NCBI GenBank assembly: GCA_035308905.1
Contig: DATGFS010000021.1
Location: forward strand, 1 to 35,309
Source of the DNA: a bacterium
Lineage (GTDB): Bacteria > Sysuimicrobiota > Sysuimicrobiia > Sysuimicrobiales > Segetimicrobiaceae
Direction of reading: 5' to 3'
Length of the DNA: 35,309 nt
This document shows positions 1,064 through 29,069 of this stretch, piece after piece (position 1 is the first letter of the stretch; every line of letters starts with the position of its first letter). The translations under genes and the position numbers were made by a program. The notes beneath the pieces were generated by a model. The model saw nothing but the letters and a program-made list of their open reading frames with translations. It searched no databases and was not told the DNA's origin.

Positions 1064-4000
1064 CTAGCTGCGCGCCTCGCTCAGGGCGGCGCGCGCGTCC
1101 GCCACCGTGGCGAACGCCTGGAACTGCCGGGTCAGGCCGGCGATCGCGAGGATGCGCTCGAGCGGCGAGCCGGCCGGCACGACCAGCGCGAGCGACCGCC
1201 GGCGCGTCGAGAGGTCCTGGCCGAACGCGAACAGCTCGCGAATCGTCAGGCTGTCGATGTAGCCGGCGTCCTCGAACGAGACGATCACCACCGGGGAGTC
1301 GGCGCGCGCGGCTTCGGCCAGCGTCCCGCGGACGGCCTCGACGCAGGTGGCATCGAGATCGCCGAAAGCCTCGACGACCACCGTTCCATCCTGGCGGGAC
1401 AGACGCGCGCCGGCCGGACCAAATGGCGGCCGGGCCGGAGATTGTGTCGTGACAATCCGGTTTGCGCGGGCGCCGCCGTCAATGTGCGCGGCGACAGGCG
1501 GCTTCACGTGCCCGGCCGCCGGCGCGGGACCTCCTGCCGGCCGCACCGCTCCGTCCGGACGCGACAGGCGCATGACGACGGTCACGGTCGTCCCGTCCGG
1601 AGCCTGCCGGACCTCCACGGAGTCGGCCAGCTCCTCGATCAGCCGGAGCCCATGGCCGCCGCCGTCCGGCGCGTGCGCCGGCCGCCAGGCGCCGGTATCG
1701 ATGATGCTCACGCGCACGGCGCCGTCGTCGCGGACGCCCCGCACCCGAACCGCGCCTCCCGGCGCGCGGTACGCGTGCTCGATCGCGTTGTTGACCGCTT
1801 CGCCGACTGCGACGGTCAACGCCGCCGCGCGCTTCTCGTCGAGCGCCGCCACGCGCGCCAGCCGGCGCACGGTCTGCCGGATGACCGCCGCGCTCGCCGG
1901 TTCCGCGGGAAGGGTGAGGTCGAACCGGTCGAGGGGCTCCGGGTCGATCCCCAGCGCGACGATCGCGACGTCGTCCGAGGCGCCCTGGTCGCCGAGCACG
2001 TCCCGGAGGATGGCGCGCGCGGGGTCTCCCGACGGCGCCGCGAGTTCGCGCCGCGCCGCGTTCATGAGGGCATCCTGCCCGGCGGCCAGGTCGCGCTGCT
2101 GCTCGATGAGCCCGTCCGTATACAGCACGAGGAGCGCGCCCGCGGGCAGGGTGAGGGTCCATGACGGCGCCTGCGGCCCGGAGACGCAGCCGAGCGGCAC
2201 GCCGGCCGTCGGCAGCGCGACGGGGTCGGCGCCCGGCACGGCCAGGATGGGCGCGGGATGGCCGGCCGTCGCGTAGGAGAGCGTGGATGAGACGGGATCC
2301 AGGACCGTGACGATCGCCGTCGCCATCGCGGCGCCGCCGTGCGCCAGCGCGAGGGCCTGGCTCGCCTGTTCGAGCACCGCGGCCGGCTGCTCGTGCTGCA
2401 GCGCGGCCGTCCTGATCGTCTGGCGGAGTTCACCCATGACGACCGCGGCCGCGAGCCCGCGCCCGGCGACGTCCCCCACCGAGACGACGATCTTGCCCGT
2501 CGGCAGCCGGAAAACGTCGTACCAGTCGCCGCCGACGTTCGACTCGCGCGCGCCCGGCTGGTAGACGGTGTGAATCGTGAAGCCCGGCACCTGCGGGATG
2601 GCGACCGGAAGCAGCGCTCGCTGGAACGTCTCGGCGGCATGATGCTCGCGCTCGTACAGGCGCGCCCGCTCCACCGCCTGCGCGCATTGGTGTCCGAGCG
2701 TCCGCATGAACGCGGCCTCGTCGGGTCCGAACCGGCGCAGCACGCCGAAGTTTACGTACAGGACGCCGATCGCGCTGCCGTGGGTGATAAGCGGCACCGC
2801 GGCGCGCGCGCCGTCCCGGATGGCCGCCGGCAGCTCCTCACGCTGCGGATAGAGTTTGTCCAAATCCGCCTCGGTCTCGAGTGAGACGACGTGTCCGGTG
2901 CGCAGGCACTCCGCGATGCCGCCGAACTGAGCGGGGGAAAACCGCCGCCACCGCCCGGTGAGCTCCGCGGGATACCCTTCGGCGTGGATCAACTCGAGCA
3001 TCTTGCCGTCCTCGGCGAGCAGCGAGACCGCCGCGGCGCGCGCGCCCAGCGCCTCGACGGTCTGCGCGACGATCACCGCCGCGACGTCGCGCGGGGTCAC
3101 CGCTTCCGAGAGCGCGGCCGTGACCGCGGCGAGGCGCGTGGCCTGTTCGACGGCCCGCTCCGCAGTCCGGCGGGCGTCTTCCTCCGCGCGCATCCGCCGG
3201 CGCAGTTCGTTCGCGGCGGCGGCCCGGTCTTCGACGATCCGGGCGACCGTCAAGACGATGATCGCCATCATCGCCATGAACAGCGACAAGTACAGCAGCG
3301 AGACGTTGGGCTGCGCGGCGGCGACGGCGAAGGGCCCCAGCTCGTGGAGCGTGCCGGCGACGGCGACCGCGGCCACGAGCGCAACGACGGTCGTCGCGTC
3401 CCGGGCGCCGAAGCGGAACGCCGCCCAGATCAGGAACGGCACGATCGCGAAACCAAATGGATAGCGGCTGCCGAACACCGCGGCGCTGACGCCGAGCAGG
3501 CCCGCGAGGAAGATCAACCGCTCCGCCGCGCCGCGGGCCGTCCAGCCGAGGCGCGGGGCGGCGGCCCACAACAGTACCAGCGGGGTGACCACGAGGGCCC
3601 CCGCGGCATCGCCCAACCACCACGTCAGCCAGACGGGCATGTACATCCGCCAGGGCGCGAATCCGGCCAGGGCCAGCGACGTCACGCCGATCGTCGCGCT
3701 GAGGGCGGTGCTGAGCAGGGCGGCGGTGAGGGCGAAGCGGACGATGTCCTCGAGACGATCGAAGGCGCGGCGGCCGCCGGCGTACCGGTTCACCAGCCAG
3801 GCCGCGGCGACGGCTTCGAGCGTGTTCCCCGCGGCGATGCCGAGTGAGGTCCAGACGGTGCCCGCGGTCGTCAGGTTGGCCGCGAACGCCCCGAGAAAGA
3901 TGCCCGGCCACGCGCGCGGGCCCCGCAGCAGCAGCACCGCGATGGCGATGCCGGTCGGCGGCCACACCGGTGTCGCGCTCGGGTGGAGAAAGGCGAGGCG

Positions 4001-4102
4001 GAGACCGGCTTTGGCGGTGAGAAAGTATATGCCGGCGAGGATCACGGCTTCCGCGAGCCGCGCCGTCACGCGTCGATTCCGTTCCATCGGTGCCGTGCGC
4101 AT
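1064..4102 (-). CDS. MASE1-GAF-SpoIIE phosphatase-HATPase-STAS multidomain regulator
   Basis: The 1012-residue product contains, in order: a MASE1-type multi-helix membrane sensor (about 15-290), a short coiled coil (290-325), a GAF domain (325-480), a SpoIIE/RsbU PP2C-type phosphatase (510-717; GGDWYD 524-529, GDVAGRG 543-549, YTDGLIE 661-667, ASDD 708-711), an RsbW-like HATPase (735-846; N box GEAVNNAIEH, then DTGAW and GGHGLRLI), a proline-rich linker, and a STAS domain (898-1005) with the phospho-acceptor motif YIDSLTIREL, Ser951. RsbU, RsbW and RsbV functions of the general-stress partner switch are thus joined in one chain. The open frame continues far upstream, but that part is antisense to the acetamidase gene. 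I therefore place the start at ATG 4102, with ATG 4087 as the alternative. No sigma factor lies nearby, so the output is unknown. Confidence 0.9.
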   Translation of the reverse strand: MRTAPMERNRRVTARLAEAVILAGIYFLTAKAGLRLAFLHPSATPVWPPTGIAIAVLLLRGPRAWPGIFLGAFAANLTTAGTVWTSLGIAAGNTLEAVAAAWLVNRYAGGRRAFDRLEDIVRFALTAALLSTALSATIGVTSLALAGFAPWRMYMPVWLTWWLGDAAGALVVTPLVLLWAAAPRLGWTARGAAERLIFLAGLLGVSAAVFGSRYPFGFAIVPFLIWAAFRFGARDATTVVALVAAVAVAGTLHELGPFAVAAAQPNVSLLYLSLFMAMMAIIVLTVARIVEDRAAAANELRRRMRAEEDARRTAERAVEQATRLAAVTAALSEAVTPRDVAAVIVAQTVEALGARAAAVSLLAEDGKMLELIHAEGYPAELTGRWRRFSPAQFGGIAECLRTGHVVSLETEADLDKLYPQREELPAAIRDGARAAVPLITHGSAIGVLYVNFGVLRRFGPDEAAFMRTLGHQCAQAVERARLYEREHHAAETFQRALLPVAIPQVPGFTIHTVYQPGARESNVGGDWYDVFRLPTGKIVVSVGDVAGRGLAAAVVMGELRQTIRTAALQHEQPAAVLEQASQALALAHGGAAMATAIVTVLDPVSSTLSYATAGHPAPILAVPGADPVALPTAGVPLGCVSGPQAPSWTLTLPAGALLVLYTDGLIEQQRDLAAGQDALMNAARRELAAPSGDPARAILRDVLGDQGASDDVAIVALGIDPEPLDRFDLTLPAEPASAAVIRQTVRRLARVAALDEKRAAALTVAVGEAVNNAIEHAYRAPGGAVRVRGVRDDGAVRVSIIDTGAWRPAHAPDGGGHGLRLIEELADSVEVRQAPDGTTVTVVMRLSRPDGAVRPAGGPAPAAGHVKPPVAAHIDGGARANRIVTTQSPARPPFGPAGARLSRQDGTVVVEAFGDLDATCVEAVRGTLAEAARADSPVVIVSFEDAGYIDSLTIRELFAFGQDLSTRRRSLALVVPAGSPLERILAIAGLTRQFQAFATVADARAALSEARS

Positions 4103-4228
4103 CAAAATCGAACCTGCATTCGCCCGCCGCGCGGGACTTCCTTCGGCCGCGGCTCCGCCCGGCCGGACGCCCTCGACGGCGCGGCGGACGCTGAAGGGTT
4201 CGCACCCGCGCTCTTGAAGCCCGCTGCC

Positions 4229-5167
4229 GTGACCGTCCACGCCGTTCCTCCCGATCGGGTCCACCACTCCTGGGACGTCCGCCACGCTCCCACGTGCACC
4301 GTGGAGAGCGGCGATACGATCGTCGTGCGCACCCGGGACGTCAGCGACAACCAGATCACGCCGGCGTCCGCGGCGGCCGACCTCGGACGGCGGGATTCCA
4401 AGCGCTCGTATCCGCTCGCGGGACCGGTGTACGTGAAGGGCGCCGCCCCGGGTGATACCCTCGCCGTCGAAATTCTGGACCTCCGCACCGAAGGGTGGGG
4501 ATGGACGGCGTTCTTCCCCGGCCGCGGGCTCCTGGCGGAGGATTTCCAAGAGCCGTACCTTCGCATCTTCGATCTCACCCGCGGTGACGTTGCCCTCATG
4601 CGTGAGGACATCGCGATTCCGATCGAGCCGTTCTTCGGCACGATGGGCGTCTGCCCGGCCGGCGCGCGGGAGCAGCCTGTGATGCCGCCCGGGACGTTCG
4701 GCGGCAACATGGACGTCCGCCAGCTGACCGCGGGCGCCACCCTGTACCTGCCGGTACAGGTGGACGGCGGGCTGTTCAGCTGCGGGGACGCGCACGCGGC
4801 GCAGGGCGACGGAGAAGTTTGCATCACCGGCATCGAAGCGCCGATGTACGGGACGCTGCGCCTCACGGTGCAAAAGGGACGCCGCCTTCCGGCGCCGCAG
4901 TTCGCCGTGCCGGGGCCGCTCGTTCCGCGCCTCAATGCCGGCGGGTGGTACGGCACGACCGGCGTGGGCTCCGATCTCTACCGCGCGGCCCAGGACGCCG
5001 TCCGCGCCGTGATCGCCCACCTCTCGAGCGCGTACGGGCTCTCCCGGGAGGACGCCTACGTCCTTGCCAGCCTCTGCGTCGACTTGAAGATTTCGGAGAT
5101 CGTCGACGCCGGGCAGTACATCGTGAGCGCGCTGCTGCCGCTCGGGGTGTTCAGACCGACCGCGTAA
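4229..5167 (+). CDS. Acetamidase/formamidase family amidohydrolase
   Basis: The 312-residue product belongs to the FmdA_AmdA family, which hydrolyses short amides such as formamide and acetamide to ammonia and the carboxylate. Diagnostic stretches are HHSWD near the N-terminus, GGNMD (158-162) and SCGDAHAAQGDGEV (184-197), which carry the family's metal and active-site residues. The length is normal for the family. The start is GTG 4229, giving the usual VHAVPPDRVHHSWD beginning; TTG 4214 is a possible alternative. It lies back to back with the MASE1 regulator gene, 126 bp apart, and its end overlaps the convergent SDR gene by 17 bp. The enzyme would be cytoplasmic and could supply nitrogen or detoxify amides; the natural substrate is not deducible. 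Confidence 0.9.
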   Translation: MTVHAVPPDRVHHSWDVRHAPTCTVESGDTIVVRTRDVSDNQITPASAAADLGRRDSKRSYPLAGPVYVKGAAPGDTLAVEILDLRTEGWGWTAFFPGRGLLAEDFQEPYLRIFDLTRGDVALMREDIAIPIEPFFGTMGVCPAGAREQPVMPPGTFGGNMDVRQLTAGATLYLPVQVDGGLFSCGDAHAAQGDGEVCITGIEAPMYGTLRLTVQKGRRLPAPQFAVPGPLVPRLNAGGWYGTTGVGSDLYRAAQDAVRAVIAHLSSAYGLSREDAYVLASLCVDLKISEIVDAGQYIVSALLPLGVFRPTA

Positions 5168-7876: not shown

Positions 7877-9076
7877 TCAGCCGGTCTTTGCCGGCCGCCA
7901 GTCGGCCGGCGCGGCGGCGAGCCGCCGCAGTCCGGCTTCCAGATCCGCGATCAGATCGTCGGTGGCTTCCAACCCCACGTGCAGCCGCACGAGCGTGCCC
8001 CGCTCGGACCACGGCCGGACCGTGCGGTTGTTCGCCAACTGCGCGGGCACGATCAGACTCTCGAACCCGCCGAAGCTCGCCCCGATCTTGAACAGCGCAA
8101 GGCCCTCGAGCATCGCGGCGACGGCGTCCTTCGATTCCGTGCGCAGCAGGACCGCGAAGAGGCTCGAGGAGCCGATGAAGTCACGCCGCCACAGCGCGTG
8201 ACCGGGGTGATCCGGCAGCGCGGGGTGTAGCACGCGCGCCACCTCGGGCAGGCCGGCCAGCCAGCGCGCCACCGTGAGCGCCGATTCCTCGTGCCGCTTC
8301 ATGCGCACGTGGAGCGTCCGCATGCCCCGCAGCGTCTCGTAGCACAGGTCGGGCGCGACGCAGTCCCCGAACTCGTCGATGCCGTCCTTGAGGCGGCGGA
8401 AGAGCGCCTCCGTCCGGGCGGTGATCACGCCCATCATGAGGTCGGAGTGCCCGGCGAGGTACTTCGTGGCCGCCTGGATCTCGACGTCCACGCCGTGATC
8501 GAATGCGCGGAAATGGAGCGGCGTGCCCCAGGTGTTGTCGAAGAACACCGTCGCGCCGCTCGCGTGGGCGGCGGCGGCAATCGCGGGGACATCCTGGATT
8601 TCGAACGTGTGCGAGCCCGGCGACTCGGTATAGACGATCTTCGTGTTCGGCCGGATCAACCCGGCGATTTCCGCCCCGATCGCGGGATCGTAGAAGGTGG
8701 TGTCGACGCCGAACCGTGCGAGCACCCCCGTGCAGAAGTTGCGCGTGGGCCCGTACGTGCTGTCCGGCACCAGGATGTGATCCCCCCGGCGGAGGAACGC
8801 CGCCAGCGCCTGTGTGATCGCGGACAGCCCGGACGAGGTCACGAGCGACCGGGCGCCGCCCGACAACTCGGCGAGGGCTTCGCGCAGCGCGAATGTAATA
8901 GGCGTGCCGTAGATGCCGTAGGACGACGTATCGCCGTACTTGCGCTCGGTGCGCCGCTCGAACGCCTCCACCGTCGGGTAGAGAATCGTCGAGGCGCGGT
9001 GGATCGGCGGGTTCACCGTGCCCGCGTGCTGCTCGGGGTCGCGGCCCGCATGGACCAGCCTCGTCTCGTGTTTCAT
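7877..9076 (-). CDS. metC: Cys/Met metabolism PLP enzyme, cystathionine beta-lyase-like
   Basis: The 399-residue protein is a trans-sulfuration-type PLP enzyme of cystathionine lyase/synthase length. The PLP-binding lysine is K205 in ATKYLAGHSDLMMG. The phosphate and ring contacts are visible in TSSGLSAITQAL and DSTYGPTRNF (Tyr108), and the cofactor aspartate in VFFDNTWGTP. The form of the ATKYL..HSDLMMG region and the N-terminus (TRLVHAGRDP, GTVNPPIHRAST) favour cystathionine beta-lyase (MetC) over gamma-synthase, but the reaction (beta-lyase, gamma-lyase or cysteine desulfhydrase) is not proven. AGGAG stands 5 nt before ATG 9076. The start overlaps the OsmC stop as ATGA, so the two are translationally coupled, linking sulfur amino-acid metabolism with peroxide or thiol chemistry. 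Confidence 0.88.
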   Translation of the reverse strand: MKHETRLVHAGRDPEQHAGTVNPPIHRASTILYPTVEAFERRTERKYGDTSSYGIYGTPITFALREALAELSGGARSLVTSSGLSAITQALAAFLRRGDHILVPDSTYGPTRNFCTGVLARFGVDTTFYDPAIGAEIAGLIRPNTKIVYTESPGSHTFEIQDVPAIAAAAHASGATVFFDNTWGTPLHFRAFDHGVDVEIQAATKYLAGHSDLMMGVITARTEALFRRLKDGIDEFGDCVAPDLCYETLRGMRTLHVRMKRHEESALTVARWLAGLPEVARVLHPALPDHPGHALWRRDFIGSSSLFAVLLRTESKDAVAAMLEGLALFKIGASFGGFESLIVPAQLANNRTVRPWSERGTLVRLHVGLEATDDLIADLEAGLRRLAAAPADWRPAKTG

Positions 9077-9492
9077 CGGGACTCCTGCACCGTGACGTTG
9101 ACGATCACTTCGGTCGCGACCGCGACCGTGCGGTAGAGTGGTCAGCGGGCCCTCCAGACGTCCACCAGCCGGTCCGCGTCGGCGCGACCGGCCCCGCGGA
9201 GCTCGAAGCGCACCTCGATCCGGCTGAATTTCGTGGGGTCCGCGCGGTCCTGAACGCCGGTGATCGTGGCGCTCAGGCCGGCGAGCGGGATGTTGTTGGT
9301 CGCGGCATAATTTTCGATCAACGTGACGCCGCAGGATGAAATCCCGGCGAGAAACGACTCGGTGTTGCTGAGCGCCTCGGGTTTCGTGGACGAGTCGAGC
9401 ACGAAGTGGTGGGTTCTCGCGCTGTTGAGCGCGCGGCCGGGCTGTCCGATCGACGCGCTGCGGACGGTCGTCGCGACCGTGCCGTCGGGCAT
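9073..9492 (-). CDS. OsmC-family peroxiredoxin-like protein with in-frame TGA (candidate selenoprotein)
   Basis: The frame from ATG 9492 (GGAGG 8 nt upstream) encodes 116 residues of an OsmC protein, including the first active-site cysteine Cys54 in FLAGISSCGVTLIE. It then meets TGA at 9142-9144. The TGA stands exactly where OsmC/Ohr proteins have their second redox cysteine (the C of CPVYRTL-like motifs). After it the same frame continues PLYRTVAVATEVIVNVTV to a TGA at 9073-9075, which overlaps the start of the downstream gene. Reading the TGA as selenocysteine (residue 117) gives a 139-residue protein, normal for the family. A hairpin follows the TGA at SECIS spacing. OsmC proteins reduce organic hydroperoxides. 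The alternatives are a nonsense mutation or a TGC-to-TGA sequence error. The selenocysteine machinery (selA, selB, selC, selD) is not in this window. Confidence 0.6.
9111..9128 (-). promoter_or_regulatory. SECIS-like hairpin downstream of the OsmC TGA
   Basis: On the transcript, 13 nt after the UGA, CGGUCGC pairs with GCGACCG (7 bp) around a four-base loop GGUC. The loop begins 20 nt after the UGA. Bacterial SECIS elements lie inside the coding region just after the UGA, with a small apical loop that has a G in its first two positions, and this hairpin meets those loose criteria. GC-rich sequence forms hairpins easily, so the structure supports the call but does not prove it. Confidence 0.45.
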
Positions 9493-9585
9493 GTGGGGAG
9501 CCTCCGGGTGGAAACGTCGTCGGGGACTCTTCGCGGGTCCGGCCGCCGTGCTCCTGCCGGGCCCGCTCCGCGTAGGGCAGGCGAT

Positions 9586-28332: not shown

Positions 28333-28408
28333 GGGGACGTAGCTCAGTTGGGAGAGCGCCTGAATCGCACTCAGGAGGTCGGCGGTTCGAATCCGCTCGT
28401 CTCCACCA
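28333..28408 (+). tRNA. tRNA-Ala (anticodon CGC)
   Basis: The 76-nt cloverleaf folds fully: acceptor GGGGACG/CGTCTCC, D stem GCTC/GAGC, anticodon stem CCTGA/TCAGG with loop ATCGCAC and anticodon CGC (reads GCG), T stem GGCGG/CCGCT with TTCGAAT loop, and encoded ACCA. Base pair G3-U70, the alanyl-tRNA synthetase identity element, is present and confirms alanine. The 3' half is overlapped by the integrase gene on the other strand, so this is the integration site of the element that follows. Confidence 0.96.
28371..28408. other. Attachment site at the tRNA-Ala 3' end
   Basis: The 3' part of the tRNA gene, from the anticodon stem to CCA, doubles as the last codons and stop of the integrase (reading SGFEPPTS). 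Integrases that target tRNA genes commonly have this arrangement, with the tRNA end serving as att core. I searched the remaining 6.9 kb by eye and saw no second copy, so the other att site must lie beyond the window or be lost. Confidence 0.6.
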
Positions 28409-29069
28409 GATTTACCAAGGGTTTCCGCGCATCACCATTTGCTGGCGTGCCCGTTGGTGCCTTTCTGGTGCCTTGACGTAGGGCGTCAAGCCGCTCTCCG
28501 ACCGCCTGGAACGCCGACGGCATCAGGTGGCCGTACGTGTTGAGCGTCGTCGTGATCGACGCGTGCCCCAGCCGCGCCTGGATGGCTTTTGGATGCACAC
28601 CAGCGGCGATCAGCAGGCTCGCGTGCGTGTGCCGTAGATCATGGAGCCTGATCTCGTGGAGACCGGCGAGCGTGAGGTGCCGTTTGAAGACCCGGTCGAT
28701 ATTGTCTGGGTCGAGTGGGCCACCAGTTTGACCCGACCGGAAGACATGGGCCTCCTCGGGATCGTCACTGGCAGGGAACACGAGGAGAATCTCAATGAGT
28801 GAGGGACTGAGGTCGATGGTGCGACGCGAGTGCCGCGTCTTGAGCGGGGCCTCCCGAACGACGTAGCGCTCCCCGTCGCGGACGCGCCCTCGAGTGCGAC
28901 GGACATGCAGTACACCACTGTGCAGCCCCCAGCGTAGCCCCAAGAGTTCGCCCCGACGAAGGCCGGTGTGCACCGCGACCCGGTACAGTGTGCGGTATGG
29001 CTCCTCAGAGGAGTACAGGAGGCGAGAACGGATTCCAGGAGTTCCGGCGGGCGCTGGGGCGGGATTCAA
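28371..29069 (-). pseudogene. Tyrosine recombinase/integrase, catalytic domain only
   Basis: The frame encodes a 232-residue phage-type integrase catalytic domain with all core residues: R38 (TGLRRGELLGLRW), H143 and R146 (LHDLRHTHASLL), H169 (LGHASITTT) and Y179 (NTYGHL). The N-terminal AP2-like and SAM-like core-binding domains, normally 150 or more residues, are missing: an in-frame TAG lies about 36 bp upstream of the first possible start (TTG 29069), and nothing integrase-like is visible beyond it. It is probably a dead remnant that once inserted the element into the tRNA-Ala. Its C-terminus is encoded by the antisense of the tRNA. Confidence 0.8.

Follow-up and report, generated by a model that had tools for sequence, protein, structure and literature searches.

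A gene on the minus strand of the 35,309-nt stretch of DNA analysed here (the window) very probably encodes an OsmC-fold redox selenoprotein with selenocysteine (Sec) at C2, the second of two redox positions, an estimate which excludes the order of the chemical steps. The selenocysteine reading had been put forward in an initial annotation of the window, and the decoding machinery of the host genome, the homologous codons, the conservation past the TGA and a covarying hairpin all favour it. The gene, the UGA, the machinery, the conserved covarying hairpin, the fold, the subfamily and the position of Sec are each shown by the sequence.

The gene (9073-9492) starts at an ATG (9492-9490), with a GGAGG ribosome-binding site, read directly from the sequence, 8 nt upstream (9501-9505), and stops at a TGA (9075-9073), giving a product of 139 amino acids. 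The minus-strand frame from 9492 to 9073 reads MPDGTV...DVWRAR-TGA-PLYRTVAVATEVIVNVTVQESR-TGA, with a single internal TGA at 9144-9142, the codon of residue 117 at the resolving-cysteine position. The C1 residue, Cys54, is encoded by a TGC at 9331-9333. Between the internal TGA and the terminator lie 22 family-like codons, and the match to the Pfam OsmC family (PF02566; residues 39-129, E 2.8e-12, 47.4 bits against a cut-off of 27.5) spans the TGA. Both the 22 family codons and the placing of the TGA on the second conserved cysteine had been claimed in the initial annotation and are confirmed.

Searching 147 related genomes with stops read through revealed the orthologue in the two remaining species of the genus and in a further seven genomes of the family, each with one TGA, located at the residue-117 codon, and a match in a distant genome (L024) with Cys at that codon. 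Scanning GTDB genomes yielded 80 named loci. Across 96 loci readable at this codon, some of them the same gene reached twice, TGA was found in 87, TGC in five, TGT in four and TAA or TAG in none, a ratio of Sec to Cys that is not a census because the seed alignment was mainly Sec. Since the cysteine of RCPLY back-translates as TGY, the scan patterns should miss Cys forms no more often than Sec forms. The question raised beforehand, whether relatives carry TGA or TGC here, is thus answered by TGA in most and by TGC or TGT less often, at exactly the same codon. Within this sample, drawn by a search seeded mostly with Sec members, the subfamily, which has the motif R-U-P-[LI]-Y, appears to be mostly Sec-containing.

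All of the named members come from metagenome-assembled genomes (MAGs), and the organism names are those of the depositors, some of them doubtful. By these names, the TGA form occurs in Rokubacteria/Methylomirabilota, relatives of Ca. Segetimicrobium, Thermomicrobiota, Dehalococcoidia/SAR202, marine Alphaproteobacteria, Actinobacteria, Gemmatimonadota and Deltaproteobacteria, and the Cys form in Tectomicrobia, Acidobacteria, Aminicenantes, Gemmatimonadota, relatives of Myxococcota and one Proteobacterium. A selB match over the cut-off was found in 38 of the 40 host genomes tested; the two TGA-bearing MAGs with no such match (L051 and L086) are probably incomplete. A tree built with residue 117 masked has the Cys rows interspersed among the Sec rows, requiring five changes by parsimony, at least three of which are forced by well-supported branches, and this scatter indicates that Sec and Cys have been exchanged repeatedly at residue 117. 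The codons 3' of the TGA are family-specific across the homologues, so that random decay after the TGA, named in the initial annotation as an outcome that would speak against Sec, was seen in a single copy. In that Rokubacteria copy (L083, around position 3330) the TGA is kept and the sequence decays directly after it; a frameshift, a chimera or a pseudogene are the alternatives to be considered there. In three close species, the sequence past the hairpin was too short for codon-position divergence to be informative. Standard annotation would call genes of this subfamily, which extends over soil, groundwater and marine phyla, truncated.

The AlphaFold2 model of the window protein has a pLDDT of 94.8, and the nearest solved folds in a Foldseek search are OsmC-family proteins, the best being Aquifex Aq_1549 (2egt; TM 0.86). 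Profile alignment places residue 54 on the peroxidatic cysteine (Cp) and residue 117 on the resolving cysteine (Cr) of Ohr, whose roles have been described (PMC5962072), and Cys54 is invariant in an alignment of 49 sequences. The window protein shares with Ohr the fold and both redox positions, but differs in that Sec replaces Cr and in scoring only 14 bits against the Ohr model TIGR03561, far below its cut-off of 88.85. A further apparent difference lies in the Arg-Glu-Cys triad, for which Arg19 and Glu51 of XfOhr were taken for comparison: the conserved Glu45 of the window protein is shifted by one in the alignment relative to the catalytic Glu, and peroxidase activity is therefore not secured. 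For the Arg, the alignment shows no clear counterpart. OsmC proteins of the YhfA/COG1765 type, represented by 2egt and by 1ml8, which we take to be E. coli YhfA, are among the closest folds (TM 0.81-0.86) and likewise have the C1-C2 pair, but are only 12-16% identical and lack Sec. Judged on fold and profile scores, the window protein has the OsmC fold and stands closest to the YhfA/Aq_1549 group; it is not a true Ohr, which makes the earlier OsmC/Ohr label a loose one.

OsmC-like selenoproteins as such are known, as the initial annotation said, but those have Sec at the other cysteine, C1. Proteins with the motif UxxT were reported from the Sargasso Sea (PMC1088965), others followed from the Global Ocean Sampling data (PMC2398784), and a 2026 inventory of 119 prokaryotic selenoprotein families, which treats different Sec positions as separate subfamilies, has OsmC-like once, in its Table 1 (PMC13188914). 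Until now they were a minor entry, represented by a handful of marine sequences in which Sec occupies the first cysteine position. The UxxT site was placed in this study by reading SAR202 OsmC genes with an in-frame TGA: these read ...SILFUEMTQIERY... and ...GIGFULLTQLKRY..., with Sec at C1 and Cys at C2, and their products score 140-167 bits against NF041052, 'OsmC-related (seleno)protein'. NF041052 members in the order to which the window belongs have Sec likewise at C1, and the family is distributed over marine Chloroflexota and genomes of the window's own family. It is similar to the window protein in having the PF02566 fold and a single Sec within the pair of redox positions, but the arrangement is reversed: Sec at C1 (FUEMT, FULLT) and Cys at C2 in NF041052, compared with Cys at C1 (CGVT) and Sec at C2 (UPLY, RUPLY) in the window protein, which has no UxxT at C1. 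Against the NF041052 cut-off of 95 bits the window protein scores 18.7 bits and its relatives 20-36 bits, all below. These low scores, together with the Sec at C1 of the catalogued family, indicate that the C2-Sec subfamily is separate. The notion that the published UxxT is the C2 site written differently was rejected, as other OsmC paralogues have a literal UxxT at C1. The C2-Sec subfamily is absent from the 2026 inventory of 119 families and, as far as the open literature consulted goes, unlisted; the groundwater-MAG survey cited as ref. 66 of PMC13188914 may contain it.

Both Sec positions were also found within single genomes. A second OsmC gene interrupted by an in-frame TGA is present in the host genome of the window (L163; contig C50, 19373-19660, minus strand); it reads ...GAAAGULTGTL...RGCPIAQTL..., with Sec at C1 and Cys at C2. 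Two other genomes of the same family (G003 and G008) each combine the C2-Sec form with an above-cut-off NF041052 match that has one in-frame TGA; in G003 this TGA was read and sits at C1. A gene similar to L163 was observed in a Dehalococcoidia genome (L141; VGGUMYG), scoring 20 bits against NF041052. Candidate C1-Sec OsmC proteins of the L163 type thus appear, by sequence, to exist outside the catalogued family as well. A more Ohr-like OsmC gene in a SAR202 genome (L140, contig C68) has an in-frame TGA at C1 (WAAUTVV) and CPVG at C2, and is possibly another Sec-bearing branch of the superfamily. The occurrence of both positions in one fold and one genome makes it testable which step of the two-residue redox cycle gains from selenium.

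Selenium insertion, peroxidase activity and the order of the steps are what we infer from these features. SelB, acting on the hairpin just past the UGA, would deliver Sec-tRNA(UCA), so that the UGA at 9144-9142 would be decoded as selenocysteine, residue 117 of the protein. Cys54 and Sec117 of the folded enzyme would make up one redox pair, of which one member would be oxidised by a hydroperoxide or similar electrophile and the other would close a selenylsulfide, to be reduced in turn by a thiol or dihydrolipoyl donor. The protein is likely to be a thiol/selenol peroxidase-type enzyme working through a Cys54-Sec117 selenylsulfide.

As to which residue attacks, it is somewhat more likely that Cys54 does so and that Sec117 resolves, although the steps could also run the other way round. 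By homology to Ohr, Sec117 would be the one that resolves, and Cys54 is both invariant and aligned with the peroxidatic cysteine of Ohr. These points weigh against an exchange of roles relative to Ohr, with Sec117 attacking the substrate and Cys54 resolving, which we regard as a plausible but less probable order. Sec is usually the attacking residue in redox selenoproteins, and this general habit argues for the exchange, as does the catalytic Glu of Ohr, which appears not to be conserved in place. NF041052 and the other paralogues have Sec at C1, the usual attacking position, from which it follows that either position can be selected for Sec within one fold. If the roles were indeed exchanged, the OsmC fold would have evolved selenoenzymes with exchanged catalytic roles, and the genome of the window would hold both arrangements as paralogues.

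The host assembly containing the window (4.0 Mb, 97% complete) was found to encode the Sec machinery that the initial annotation had proposed to look for, selA, selB, selD and a tRNA-Sec(UCA) all being present. The tRNA-Sec with anticodon UCA lies on contig C33 (68.7 bits; called tRNA-SeC by ARAGORN), close to selA (TIGR00474, 547 bits) and selB (TIGR00475, 333 bits). The selD gene (L047; contig C3, 79138-80058, minus strand; 389 bits) contains one in-frame TGA, which matches Sec-containing SelD proteins, and it is likely to be a further selenoprotein gene of this genome. TGA is likewise an ordinary terminator in the host genome, that of the OsmC gene itself included, so that UGA is not reassigned genome-wide.

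The hairpin (9111-9128, minus strand; CGGUCGC-GGUC-GCGACCG) begins 13-14 nt past the TGA. It has a stem of 6 bp (9127-9122 with 9117-9112), a loop GGUC (9121-9118) with an invariant G at 9120, and a seventh pair (9128-9111) that is present in 46 of 75 sequences. With position 0 set at the T of the TGA, the stem joins bases 17-22 to 27-32 and encloses a four-base loop NGNN; the six pairs are all standard in every one of 75 distinct Sec sequences, and the second loop base is always G. In two pairs, 17-32 and 20-29, both partners fall on third codon positions, where changes are mostly silent in the protein, and these switch jointly, from G-C to A-U in marine Alphaproteobacteria and from C-G to U-A in several Dehalococcoidia and in L103. 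All 150 cells at these third-position pairs are paired, against a mean of 136.6 and a maximum of 141 in 1000 shuffles of synonymous codons. Double changes occur at four of the six pairs with 100% pairing, and the covariation score is 0.211 compared with 0.123 in shuffled sequences and 0.004-0.096 with the partner slid. In Thermomicrobiota, two first/second-position pairs vary as well, by way of G-U intermediates. An intact hairpin, loop G included, was found in 86 of 86 Sec genes (L083 set aside) and in one of nine Cys genes (Fisher p 7e-11, uncorrected for relatedness). The RNA is therefore kept only where the codon is UGA, as a SECIS element predicts, and its presence in all 86, together with TGA at the exact codon in 87 of the 96 loci, argues against a chance structure. 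The SECIS-like hairpin 13 nt past the TGA that had been noticed in the sequence beforehand is thus real in its position and covaries.

Bacterial SECIS elements of the UGA-proximal kind, for example the one in E. coli fdhF, are short coding-region stem-loops that directly follow the UGA and have a conserved G in their apical loop. The hairpin of the window resembles the fdhF type in these respects but differs in having 6-7 bp and a loop of four bases. An Rfam scan of the hairpin region gave a chance match only, with no Rfam family fitting the hairpin. SECIS_1 (RF00031) had no match in the host genome and also none in 14 control genomes, which makes the former result uninformative.

Three other accounts of the UGA are at odds with this evidence. 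That it is read as another amino acid, through code reassignment or misincorporation of Cys, would accord with the Cys found at residue 117 in homologues, and is nevertheless very improbable given the full Sec system of the host genome, its use of TGA as a stop, and a hairpin that is kept in TGA genes and broken in eight of nine Cys genes. That it is a true stop, with the protein ending at residue 116 and the rest being overlap or decay, would suit a genome in which TGA ordinarily terminates genes, this one included. It is hardly credible when family sequence and a covarying hairpin continue past the codon in dozens of distant genomes, the codon is always TGA and always in the same Cys column, and Cys forms are dispersed among the Sec forms in the tree. 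A TGC misread as TGA through a sequencing or assembly error can be dismissed, as the same TGA occurs in two other species of the genus and at many loci from independent assemblies.

A gene for a Cys/Met-metabolism PLP enzyme (7877-9076, minus strand; PF01053, E 5.2e-107) follows the selenoprotein gene. Its ATG (9076-9074) is overlapped by the OsmC stop TGA (9075-9073), and reading the minus strand at 9076-9073 verifies the ATGA coupling described in the initial annotation. The other two species of the genus share the overlap, which is not conserved outside these three species. Operon context was dropped as a clue to function, as clustering of neighbours gave none conserved across phyla and its largest groups consisted of shadow ORFs of the OsmC gene itself. 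Elsewhere in the window, a match to the acetamidase/formamidase family was observed on the plus strand at 3983-5167, in two separate stretches (174 bits). A tRNA-Ala(CGC) at 28333-28408 (plus strand) adjoins a phage-type integrase ORF (28371-29069, minus strand), and the pair is a possible integration site of a mobile element.
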